Shown piece by piece: positions 25,489 through 28,180 of a DNA stretch of 64,000 bases (its first letter is position 1; each line of letters begins with the position of its first letter). Below the pieces are notes generated by a model, which worked only from the letters and a program-made list of their open reading frames with translations, ran no database searches and was not told the origin of the DNA. This DNA is from Dyella choica (GTDB taxonomy: Bacteria > Pseudomonadota > Gammaproteobacteria > Xanthomonadales > Rhodanobacteraceae), in assembly GCF_003977665.1 (NCBI RefSeq), contig NZ_RYYV01000001.1:248001-312000 (forward strand). Direction: 5' to 3'. Made by a program: the position numbers and the translations under genes.

Positions 25489-26436
25489 ATGGATTTCCTC
25501 AGCCCTCGCTTTATCGCTCTCTACCTGCTGCTGGCCTTCGTGCTGTGCGTGCTGCTGGTGCATTTGCGCGGACGGGCGCGGCTGCGCTTCGATCGCCAGC
25601 TGGTGGACCACTCCGCCGTCTTCGCGCCGTACAACCTTCTGATGTATGCCTTTTCGGCGGTGCCGGCACGGCCGATCCTCGATCGCGGCGGCTTTCCGCA
25701 GCTGGACCTGCTGAAGGACAACTGGCAAACGATACGCGACGAAGCGCTGCAGCTGTTCGACGAAGGCCATATCCGCGCCGCCGAACGGCATAACGACGCC
25801 AGCTTCAACAGCTTCTTCAAGCAAGGCTGGAAACGCTTTTACCTGAAGTGGTACGGCGAGCCGCTGGCTTCGGCGGAAACCCTGTGCCCGAAAACCGTAG
25901 CGCTGCTCAAGGCCATTCCCAGCGTGAAAGCGGCGATGTTCGCCACGCTTGCCCCGCAAAGCAAACTCAATCCGCATCGCGATCCCTTTGCCGGCTCGCT
26001 GCGCTACCACCTCGGCCTGATTACGCCAAACTCGCGCCATTGCCGCATCTTCGTCGACGGCGAGGAACACGCCTGGGGCGACGGCAAGGACGTGGTGTTC
26101 GACGAAACCTACGTGCACTGGGTGGAGAACAACACCGACCAGACGCGCGTGATCCTGTTCGCCGACGTCGAGCGCCCGCTGCGCACGCGCCTGATGAGCG
26201 CCATCAATCACCGTGTCGGCGCATTCATGGGCAAGATCACGGCCTCGCCGAACACCGAGTCGCCGGAAGAAAGAACCGGCTTCGTCAACCGCGTATTCGC
26301 GCTCAACCAACGCGGACGCGAGCGCAGCCGCGCCTTCAAGAAGAAGTATCCGAAGCTGTTCCGTGCGGTGAAATACGTGGGCATGCTGATCTTCATCTGG
26401 TTGGTGTTCCTGGCGCCCTGGCCGTTCGTCCGCTAA
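25489..26436 (+). CDS. aspartyl/asparaginyl beta-hydroxylase family protein, LpxO-like
   Basis: 315 aa. Membrane helices lie at each end (FIALYLLLAFVLCVLLVHL near residue 8, YVGMLIFIWLVFLAPWPF at the C terminus). The 2-oxoglutarate/Fe(II) core shows KLNPHRDPFAGSLRYHLGL (first His and Asp ligands) and HWVENNTDQTRVILFADVER (distal His, 2-OG-binding Arg). This matches LpxO, which 2-hydroxylates the secondary acyl chain of lipid A, but a protein hydroxylase is possible. The stop codon TAA is also the left candidate target duplication of the palindromic element that follows. Confidence 0.87.
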   Translation: MDFLSPRFIALYLLLAFVLCVLLVHLRGRARLRFDRQLVDHSAVFAPYNLLMYAFSAVPARPILDRGGFPQLDLLKDNWQTIRDEALQLFDEGHIRAAERHNDASFNSFFKQGWKRFYLKWYGEPLASAETLCPKTVALLKAIPSVKAAMFATLAPQSKLNPHRDPFAGSLRYHLGLITPNSRHCRIFVDGEEHAWGDGKDVVFDETYVHWVENNTDQTRVILFADVERPLRTRLMSAINHRVGAFMGKITASPNTESPEERTGFVNRVFALNQRGRERSRAFKKKYPKLFRAVKYVGMLIFIWLVFLAPWPFVR

Positions 26437-26723
26437 GGACCCTCTGATCTATTCCTACGCACCCGGCATGACGTCCAGAAGGCCCGCAGGGCGTGTCGCG
26501 CGGCACAGGGCAGACTGGGCGTCTGTTCAAGCCGCGGGGCACGGCCTGCAGGCCTTCTGGACGTCACCCCATCATTAAAATTTAAAATGTGGGGGCCGCA
26601 CTGTATGCGCGTCTGGCGGCGTCCCAGTGCCTAGACAGACAGCCAGTCTGCCTTCGCCACTGGGACGCCGCCAGACGCGCATACAATGCGGTGACGGGTA
26701 CGTAGGAATAGATCAGAGGGTCC
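26437..26723. mobile_element. 287-bp palindromic MITE-like element with a four-stem cloverleaf layout
   Basis: Terminal inverted repeats GGACCCTCTGATCTATTCCT... (26437-26465) and their inverse (26695-26723) match at 28 of 29 positions and are flanked by TAA on both sides (26434-26436, 26724-26726), a candidate 3-bp target duplication. Inside are three back-to-back hairpins. Arms 26469-26495/26540-26566 match at 25 of 27. CCCCA-t-CATT/AATG-TGGGG spans 26567-26594. Arms 26596-26631/26656-26691 match at 34 of 36. Both large hairpins carry an apical CAGAC-N5-GTCTG. It has no open reading frame of note. It could be a non-autonomous transposon, a structured RNA gene, or both. Confidence 0.8.
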
Positions 26724-26730
26724 TAAGGCC

Positions 26731-26756
26731 GTCACGTTTTTGCTTGCTGGCGCGTC
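26731..26756 (+). promoter_or_regulatory. ECF41-type promoter of the sigma factor gene
   Basis: GTCACG (26731) and CGTCC (26753) are separated so that GTCAC-N17-CGTC is kept exactly as in the two CMD promoters downstream. ECF41 sigma factors are known to use TGTCACA/CGTC-type promoters and to regulate themselves. The -35 starts 7 bases after the palindromic element ends. Confidence 0.75.
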
Positions 26757-26784: not shown

Positions 26785-27684
26785 ATGGACGCGCCTACCG
26801 AACTGTTCCAGCAACACCGCCCACGCCTGCTTGGCCTCGCCTACCGCATGTTGGGCACCCAGGCGGACGCCGAAGACGTACTGCACGACGCCTGGCTGCG
26901 CTGGCATGCGCAGGACCAGGCTGGTCTGGATGACGCCGAAGCCTGGCTGGTGACCGTCACCACCCGTCTCGCACTGGATCGCCTGCGCCACGCCAAGGTG
27001 GAGCGCGAACACTACACCGGACCTTGGCTGCCCGAGCCGCTGGTGGAGCCGGAAGCGCAGCCGGACTCGCAAGCCGAACAAGCCCAAACGCTCACCCACT
27101 CTTTTCTGCTGATGCTCGAACGGCTGAGCCCGGAAGAGCGCGCCGCGTTCCTGCTGCGTGAGGTTTTCGACTACAGCCATGCCGAAGCCGCGAGCATCCT
27201 TGGCATCACCGAAGAATCCTGCCGCCAGCGCTCGCATCGCGCCAAACAGCGGCTGCGCGAGGAGCGTGTGCGCTTCAGTGCCAACACGCAAACCCAGCGG
27301 CGCCTGCTGGAGCGGTTCGCCCTGGCCCTGCGGCGCCCTTCCGAAGAAAACCTGCGCGCGCTGCTGTCCGAGGACGCGATACAGGTGGCCGACGGTGGCG
27401 GACTGGTCGCCGCCACACTGCGGCCACTGCTCGGCAGCGAGCGGATCACGCGCCTGTACCTGCAGATCCACAAACATGAGCAAGGGCACGACATCCGCCG
27501 CGATCTGCGCGTGGTGAATGGTGAACCCGCACTGCTGACCTGGGTGGACGGCCAGCTGACCACCGTGGTTTGGATCGAGTGCGACGGCGAGCGCATCACC
27601 GCGCTGCATGCGCTGCGCAATCCACAAAAATTGGCGCGGCTGGCCGCTGTCACGAAATCACCGGCTGGCTCGTCCTTGCATTGA
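26785..27684 (+). CDS. ECF41-family RNA polymerase sigma factor
   Basis: 299 aa from the ATG at 26785 with GGAG six bases upstream. Sigma region 2 spans about 5-75 (RMLGTQADAEDVLHDAWLRW), and region 4 spans about 108-165 (LSPEERAAFLLREVFDYSHA...SCRQRSHRAKQRL). The linker holds WLPEP (81-85), and the SnoaL/NTF2-like C-terminal domain (about 175-290) holds DGGG (203-206). Both are ECF41 hallmarks, and the extension replaces an anti-sigma factor as the control element. The next two genes encode carboxymuconolactone decarboxylase proteins, the usual ECF41 targets. The inducing signal is unknown. Confidence 0.92.
   Translation: MDAPTELFQQHRPRLLGLAYRMLGTQADAEDVLHDAWLRWHAQDQAGLDDAEAWLVTVTTRLALDRLRHAKVEREHYTGPWLPEPLVEPEAQPDSQAEQAQTLTHSFLLMLERLSPEERAAFLLREVFDYSHAEAASILGITEESCRQRSHRAKQRLREERVRFSANTQTQRRLLERFALALRRPSEENLRALLSEDAIQVADGGGLVAATLRPLLGSERITRLYLQIHKHEQGHDIRRDLRVVNGEPALLTWVDGQLTTVVWIECDGERITALHALRNPQKLARLAAVTKSPAGSSLH
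27649..27674 (+). promoter_or_regulatory. ECF41-type promoter of the first CMD gene
   Basis: TGTCACG (from 27648) and CGTCC (27671) with GTCAC-N17-CGTC spacing lie inside the 3' end of the sigma gene, 48 bases before the CMD start. The following CGTCCTTGCATTGAACGGCC is nearly repeated after the third promoter. Confidence 0.75.
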
Positions 27685-27721
27685 ACGGCCGATTCAGGCC
27701 GCTTCCATTCAAGGAGCCCCC

Positions 27722-28180
27722 ATGTCCCGTTTCAATATCCAAAAGCACTTTCAGGCTGTGCAGCCGCTGTTCGCCCTCAGCAAGCACATCAAGTCCGGCA
27801 CGCTGGAGCCGGCACTGATCGAATTGGTACTGATGCGCGTCTCGCAGATCAACGGCTGCGCCTACTGCCTGGACATGCACAGCAAGGACGCGCGCGCTGC
27901 CGGCGAAACCGAGCAGCGTCTATACGTGCTGGCCGGCTGGCGCGAGGCGCCGTTCTACAGCGAGCGCGAACGCGCCGCTTTCGACTGGGCCGAGGCGCTC
28001 ACCCGGCTGGTTCCCGGCAACCCGGTGCCGGATGCCCTCTACGAGGAAGCGAGCCGTCACTTCAACGAAAAAGAGCTGGTCGAGCTCACCCTGCTGGTGG
28101 CCAACATCAACACCTGGAACCGGATCAACCTGGCGGCGCATACCGTGGCGGGCGACTACAAGCCCGGCATGTTCGGCTGA
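27722..28180 (+). CDS. carboxymuconolactone decarboxylase / AhpD-like protein 1
   Basis: 152 aa, all helical by pattern. The redox-type motif CAYCLDMH (Cys46, Cys49, His53) is the AhpD CxxCxxxH centre, which in AhpD relays electrons or acts in alkylhydroperoxidase chemistry. The start at 27722 follows AAGGAG. It is separated from the sigma gene by 37 bases but carries its own ECF41 promoter. It resembles the next gene closely (both contain SQ-NGC-YC-DMHSK-AR, GETEQRLY and YSERERAA), pointing to tandem duplication. The substrate is not known; a role in peroxide or electrophile defence is an inference. Confidence 0.92.
   Translation: MSRFNIQKHFQAVQPLFALSKHIKSGTLEPALIELVLMRVSQINGCAYCLDMHSKDARAAGETEQRLYVLAGWREAPFYSERERAAFDWAEALTRLVPGNPVPDALYEEASRHFNEKELVELTLLVANINTWNRINLAAHTVAGDYKPGMFG

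Follow-up and report, generated by a model that had tools for sequence, protein, structure and literature searches.

Is the near-perfect four-way cloverleaf of 287 bases at positions 26437-26723 of the window (the whole stretch of 64,000 nucleotides of Dyella choica DNA analysed here) a mobile element, a functional structure or a palindromic accident? Folded as RNA, the segment 26431-26729 reaches -235.7 kcal/mol, as against -116.8 (sd 5.8) for 200 dinucleotide shuffles, none of which (0/200) did as well (z = -20.5). From left to right, the target-site flank CTAA (26433-26436), delimited by empty sites in relatives and containing in its TAA the stop codon of the gene at 25489-26436, precedes the forward-strand parts of the element: the left terminal inverted repeat, or 5' arm of the outer stem (26437-26465); the left junction GCA (26466-26468); hairpin A (26469-26566), with the tip CAGAC-TGGGC-GTCTG at 26511-26525; a middle AT-rich hairpin of the form CCCC...GGGG (26567-26595); hairpin B (26596-26691), with the tip CAGAC-AGCCA-GTCTG at 26636-26650; the right junction TGA (26692-26694); and the right terminal inverted repeat, or 3' arm of the outer stem (26695-26723). 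The right flank TAA (26724-26726) consists of duplicated target bases, as read directly and from the empty-site comparison. The two arms of the outer stem, which covaries among copies, and hairpins A and B, the former present in all three subfamilies described below, were seen both by direct reading and in the fold; the middle hairpin was seen in the fold, and the two junctions were read directly and recur in the family consensus, GCA again after the outer stem. The sequence-only reading of this locus had claimed terminal inverted repeats, three hairpins, the GCA and TGA junctions and a TAA on both sides, and on re-reading all of these are as claimed, the termini being complementary at 28 of 29 positions. 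The common apical design that it noted, CAGAC-N5-GTCTG, is also present at both tips, with the refinement that they are oppositely oriented: loop bases excepted, tip B reads as tip A in reverse complement. The element is thus a pseudo-dyad whose parts, from end through hairpin, middle and hairpin to end, are arranged with approximate two-fold symmetry. It contains no open reading frame of 80 aa or more, the cut-off that we have employed.

The site of the window copy is empty in all 15 of the other Dyella genomes examined. The hydroxylase gene on the left of the element was located in all 15; in 14 of them the sigma-factor gene on its right was located as well, at a distance of at most about 70 bp and with no element between the two; in G002 the left flank continues into unrelated sequence and the element is absent. 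The sequence that follows the hydroxylase gene in other Dyella genomes resembles CGCTAAGGCCGTCACG, examples being CACTGAGGCCGTCACA (L223) and GCGCTAAGCCTGTCACG (L228). The empty site predicted by deleting the element together with one TAA therefore has homologous forms in the relatives, but the exact predicted 16-mer was not seen in the 15 Dyella genomes. Since the site is empty in these genomes, the window copy was gained by insertion within the lineage that carries it. The duplicated bases would preserve the TAA stop of the hydroxylase gene (25489-26436), and the insertion would leave in place the region in front of the gene for the ECF sigma factor (26785-27684); with both intact, it was probably nearly neutral, and what we see of the window copy suggests nothing beyond a tolerated insertion between a stop codon and this region. 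The region itself contains, at 26731-26756, the boxes GTCACG and CGTC separated by 16 bp, and GTCAC is conserved, by eye, in the rows of the empty-site comparison. With the CMD-family gene (27608-28180) behind the sigma-factor gene, this has the look of what we take to be an autoregulated promoter of the ECF41 type.

The host genome (5.49 Mb in 68 contigs) contains 78 matches to the element, 11 of them near-full copies, including that in the window, and many of them fragments. The end motif CTCTGATCTATTCC, allowing at most two mismatches, occurs there at 95 sites, as against 2 when it was reversed as a control. Matches were found in 22 of 61 genomes, and 14 of the 15 other Dyella genomes hold relatives of the element; with a subfamily-3 copy as query, 72 of 197 genomes of the family Rhodanobacteraceae, in 15 of its 26 genera, gave matches. 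Further copies, for which the sequence-only reading had proposed to search the host and related genomes, are thus present in both. The exact 20-base common end recurs in 43 stretches of named records, all from Dyella or Rhodanobacter, and the plasmid and phage collections gave no match to the element. The end of the window copy, GGACCCTCTGATC, differs from the common end at two bases.

We have extracted 149 elements from the fetched loci; they are the copies best listed by the searches rather than a random draw, and the majority are from the genus Dyella. Their lengths are 285-289 bp (69 elements), 280-284 bp (11), 265-269 bp (29) or scattered (40), so that two narrow classes, 280-289 and 265-269 bp, take in 109 of the 149. 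Stem B defines the subfamilies: subfamily 1 (n = 65, window copy included) has GCACTGTATGCGCG; CTGTCTGTCCGCA marks the other two (n = 77 in all), subfamily 2 with elements of about 287 bp and subfamily 3 with elements of about 267 bp; and 7 of the 149 elements lie outside all three. Subfamily 3 carries CCC-TTCG-GGG in place of the middle hairpin, with TCCG in three copies. The ends are without mismatch over 19 bases in 69 of 98 elements, in a search that itself demanded similar ends. Four copies (L010, L011, L130 and L136) are longer, at 325-333 bp, with extra sequence in the hairpin regions. The host genome also harbors another short palindromic repeat, GGAAGCTCTGATTTATTCAGAGCTTCC (L088-L094), some copies of which run on into sequence like GTCTGAAAAAATCCAGGACGGATTTTTTCAGACCATCC and are possibly a second MITE family. 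Sites with CTCTGATTTATTCA in the same genome were considered as the ends of an autonomous element and rejected, being another short palindromic repeat. Among the papers listed on Dyella, Rhodanobacter and Xanthomonadaceae repeats and on IS5-linked MITEs we saw no description of this family: to judge from titles and abstracts, those on Dyella deal with other subjects, and that on IS5-linked MITEs concerns Pseudomonas syringae. We regard it as a new MITE family of the IS5 type, whose cloverleaf interior is unusual and confined to a narrow range of sizes.

Dispersed copies and empty sites together make the element a MITE. Besides the window site, four more (L158, L081, L151 and L008) are empty in a relative, and three others that were tried (L060, L154 and L004) gave no clean junction. 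Judged from sequence comparison, the window element is most probably, at a probability of roughly 0.8, a member of a non-autonomous transposable-element family that is present in Dyella and other Rhodanobacteraceae and mobilised by an IS5-type transposase. The mobilisation by an IS5-family enzyme proposed at the outset is supported by the copies, the empty sites and IS5-type insertion sequences with matching ends. One such candidate partner, L127 of Rhodanobacter, is a broken insertion sequence whose transposase, in two frames, matches Pfam DUF772 and DDE_Tnp_1 (it is the one among L127, L191 and the IS5-type elements of G039 on which Pfam domains were tested), and its 20-base ends, TAGGGATGCTCTGATCTATT, are equal to each other and to the common end of the family. 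L191, in the Dyella genome G002, has a transposase ORF of 287 aa with 70% identity to that of L127, and its right end, GGGATGCTCTGATTTATTCC as against GGGATGCTCTGATCTATTCC, equals the common end at 19 of 20 bases. The MITE resembles L127, L191 and the elements of G039 in its ends and YTAR-like targets, but differs from them in lacking an ORF of at least 80 aa and in having an interior of its own. A search of the host genome with the L127 transposase gave no match; the element may be stranded there, or may use another IS5 member. At the opposite extreme, we give practically no credence to a one-off palindromic accident, which is refuted by the copies, the empty sites and the paired changes described below, and for which we found no supporting point.

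An IS5-family transposase made elsewhere would recognise ends of the GGATGCTCTGATC type and move the element into YTAR or TA sites, which in the GC-rich Dyella genomes would often be stop codons. A preference for YTAR targets is linked to IS5, and the family displays it: among 79 copies of at least 255 bp, CTAG stands on both sides of 18, and TTAA on both sides of 6. Identical 4-mers flank 26 of the 79, 24 of them the self-complementary CTAG or TTAA and two not; two more (L008 and L151) have the inverted flanks TTAG...CTAA, which fit a 2-bp TA duplication better. Since CTAG and TTAA are self-complementary, the copies that they flank fit a 4-bp (YTAR) as well as a 2-bp (TA) duplication. The flanks of both L127 and L191 form the imperfect repeat TTAG...CTAG, and for a more distant relative of these insertion sequences, in G039, all 9 copies read are flanked by direct repeats of 4 bp, 8 of them YTAR. 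The more specific suggestion of an IS1031-like subgroup that targets TNA is not supported: the window copy alone is compatible with a TAA duplication, but the 18 of 79 copies with CTAG on both sides have no 3-bp TNA direct repeat, the distant relative has 4-bp repeats, and L010 and L011 have TAA/TTA. The stop codon TAA or TAG itself forms the flank at 27 of 110 neighbouring gene 3' ends, just as it does in the window. A predicted ORF spanning the element was found in none of 146 cases, though some genes may still be cut, since the element holds stops; 15 of the 110 gene 3' ends and four starts were predicted inside an element.

One observation runs counter to a simple IS5-type MITE: in other genera, elements of the same length (L406, L407 and L409-L413, at 283-288 bp) have a wholly different outer stem, of the GGGCAACGCTGATCAAGTATCGCC type. 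Possibly these elements have swapped their ends for ones from another insertion sequence. REPINs and BIMEs, which are paired inverted hairpins in many copies, invite a different comparison, namely with a single-stranded DNA element of the REP/RAYT or IS200/IS605 kind that is recognised as a hairpin. Two inverted hairpins with a common tip do resemble paired inverted REPs, and a REP-like GTAGGCTGGGATGGCAATCCCAGC lies within the hairpins of L016 and L019 and, in variant form, of L014 and L029. Nevertheless, we consider such a mechanism very unlikely: the Dyella ends match the IS5 type and the flanks look like duplicated YTAR or TA, both of the DDE-transposon kind rather than that of REPINs or BIMEs; the REP-like pieces are confined to a few copies; and single-contig genomes display no strand pattern, by eye, among the matches listed.

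Several known repeat families offer parallels; for ERIC, Correia and RUP the comparison is one of described properties. The ERIC (or IRU) sequences of enterobacteria are intergenic mobile repeats of 127 bp with terminal inverted repeats and TA ends, whose transcripts are highly folded and which in Yersinia affect neighbouring transcripts in an orientation-dependent manner (PMC2229807). On that description they share with the Dyella element a small size, intergenic position, mobility, terminal inverted repeats and terminal TA, but the Dyella family differs in its size (mostly 280-289 or 265-269 bp), its four-way cloverleaf and its IS5-like ends. To our knowledge the ERIC sequence is also different from that of the Dyella element. 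The Correia (NEMIS) elements of Neisseria are MITEs of 105-155 bp with 24-bp inverted repeats, TA ends and stem-loops in their transcripts, for which an IHF site, divergent promoters and RNase III processing have been proposed (PMC2229807); on this description the Dyella element shares with them its nature as a MITE, its long inverted repeats and TA at its ends. Finally, the non-autonomous RUP of Streptococcus pneumoniae is thought to be mobilised by IS630-Spn1 via matching ends, with TA as the target (PMC2229807). The Dyella element is likewise non-autonomous, with ends that match an insertion sequence and a TA target, but its partner is of the IS5 type, and the passages on RUP mention no three-hairpin interior (PMC2229807).

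In a cloverleaf held at a near-fixed size, a change in one arm would be matched in the other, and the arms would stay complementary. The 34 copies of subfamily 2 have 98.2% of their cells paired, as against 90.5% when shuffled and 33-39% when the partners were slid, and both sides have changed in 58 of 106 pairs versus 22.5 in the shuffles, a control that was applied to subfamily 2 only (34 of its 35 copies of 286-288 bp). Compensatory changes between copies, which had been named as something to look for, are therefore present. The 34 copies analysed from subfamily 1 have both sides changed in 54 of 113 pairs. Such paired changes could result either from arm-to-arm copying at the DNA level or from selection on the fold. 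In the outer stem and hairpin B of subfamily 2 there are 217 doubly changed cells, 67 of them transversions, and the one-sided or broken cells are few (27 G-U, 25 A-C and 11 other); the column pair 167/255 occurs in the states CG, UA, GC and AU, with no intermediate. Between the two copies at each of two orthologous sites, L174/L182 beside the 5-formyltetrahydrofolate cyclo-ligase gene and L179/L186 beside aat, there are 7 and 10 Watson-Crick double changes, respectively, and 8 one-sided changes at either site; if each site goes back to a single insertion, pairing has been re-established where the element sits, with no transposition. In the outer stem and hairpin B, we think, the paired changes more likely come from the copying of one arm onto the other at the DNA level.

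That palindrome self-correction during replication, acting alone, keeps the arms complementary, the fold being without use, is an explanation to which we would give somewhat less than even odds. It accommodates the double changes just described, with their transversions, few intermediates and occurrence at orthologous sites, as well as the excess of A-C (67) over G-U (46) among mismatch states found in a single copy, all regions and subfamilies summed. The narrow length classes (80 of 149 elements at 280-289 bp and 29 at 265-269 bp) speak against it, palindrome tips being expected to lose sequence; so does hairpin A, where G-U pairs are retained uncorrected. On the A-left strand the mismatch cells of that hairpin are G-U rather than A-C by 163:6, 159:7 and 112:6 in subfamilies 1, 2 and 3, and the states found in at least two copies by 14:0, 15:2 and 8:1; those found in one copy only are balanced (3:6, 5:3 and 7:4). 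Hairpin B, with 36:27, 13:22 and 7:19, leans in two subfamilies in the direction opposite to A; in the outer stem the two states are nearly even (17:11, 20:14 and 16:14). Over the whole strand the A-left fold has the lower energy in 56 of 79 copies, by a mean difference of 3.7 kcal/mol, to which the relatedness of the copies gives little weight; on trees, Watson-Crick pairs changed to G-U 103 times versus 64 times to A-C, with no significant difference between internal and terminal branches (p 0.21). The hairpin A pattern fits selection on the A-left strand as RNA and also fits a sequence constraint on the right arm; perhaps selection on a folded strand is acting there. As for the early suggestion of a structured RNA or a DNA cruciform, the fold is conserved through double changes, but the G-U/A-C test is mixed.

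Self-correction would also leave unexplained the orientation of the element relative to its neighbouring genes. Genes were called with a home-made codon-score finder trained on eight genes of the window, so that the start codons are approximate; 146 of the 149 elements entered the counts, 140 with a gene on both sides. Among the 74 copies of subfamilies 2 and 3 with both neighbours, 25 have a sense start codon no more than 16 bp from the right end, and one has its left end before an antisense start; three of the 25 starts are predicted inside the element end, and L174 and L182 are one orthologous site. Between tandem genes the element is sense in 34 cases and antisense in 7, and between divergent genes it is nearer the right-hand gene in 23 cases versus 6. 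Subfamily 1, to which the window copy belongs (n = 60), has no such bias (3 vs 3 starts within 16 bp; 21 vs 23 in tandem). According to Pfam, the genes within 16 bp of an element include thyA, dnaX, rapZ, folK, folB, aat and clpS, with mutL at 28 bp. When the flanks of the 149 elements were compared, five pairs were listed, three of them apparently one site each; the start-proximal copies are thus mostly independent insertions. For eight start-proximal genes, other Dyella genomes have short, element-free leaders, and in 26 of the 27 rows compared a start codon occupies the corresponding position.

The effect was not repeated in 33 further elements, mostly from other genera, where the tandem count was 14 vs 7 and starts within 16 bp were 3 vs 1, these three being predicted 21-32 bp inside the element and one of them lying in a chance repeat; the set retains chance-like inverted repeats (L402_2635, L407_2379 and L408_2088), and the boundaries of a few members, such as L400 and L414, are probably too short. 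So far, then, the start-codon effect belongs to one genus and to its best-listed copies. We also considered whether the folded element bridges a Shine-Dalgarno sequence on its left side to the start codon, and rejected it: over 26 cases, drawn from both orientations and all subfamilies, in which the start lies at 1-12 bp, the joined flanks had a mean score of -3.0, and a shuffled left flank one of -4.0. The sense bias of subfamilies 2 and 3 is nonetheless the counter-point to neutral insertion, and neither the joined-flank Shine-Dalgarno test nor the promoter matrix to which we now turn explains it.

If the right end contained a promoter directed outward, and this took over from the native promoter once the element had landed in a leader, with the opposite orientation lost by selection, the bias of subfamilies 2 and 3 would be accounted for; we rate this explanation as rather unlikely. 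The best pair of boxes in the right end (CAGACA and a TAGAAT-like box, spaced by 18 bp) is in the same place in 47 of 76 copies, and at clpS, sdaA, dnaX, rph and thyA the element sits, by eye, between a promoter-like sequence and the start codon. However, a simple sigma-70 matrix scored right versus left outward ends of subfamilies 2 and 3 at 5.70 vs 5.93 (p 0.62) and preferred the right end in the unbiased subfamily 1 (4.10 vs 3.26).

Alternatively, the A-left strand may be transcribed and fold as a cloverleaf RNA that serves, at least in the Dyella subfamilies 2 and 3, as a 5' leader of the gene behind it, the transposon ends only spreading it. The sense bias of these subfamilies, the housekeeping genes behind the element with their conserved starts, the recurrent G-U states of hairpin A and the TTCG or TCCG loop of subfamily 3 all point this way. 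Read on the other strand, these loops are presumably DNA triloops of the GNA type, and so are not decisive for RNA. The unbiased subfamily 1, the further elements with their three starts inside the element, and hairpin B without a steady G-U excess argue against it, and no Rfam 15 family matched at its gathering score (there were sub-threshold hairpin matches only). We regard a structured RNA in this sense as unlikely. The broader idea that a Dyella transposable element has turned into a transferable 5' leader, placed by subfamilies 2 and 3, as a self-correcting cloverleaf of nearly fixed size, in the sense orientation directly before the start codons of housekeeping genes, where its RNA or some signal in its right half would let or tune expression, is more tentative still. 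It includes the proposition that the short leaders of the genes served mostly have no strong Shine-Dalgarno sequence, and we have lowered its probability because the further elements hold no clean case of a sense start codon.

The IS5-type MITE family provides a natural set of more than 100 near-perfect, non-identical palindromes of one design, and the persistence of perfect long inverted repeats thereby becomes directly testable. If the leader interpretation were true, a transposable element would be supplying the leaders of essential genes.
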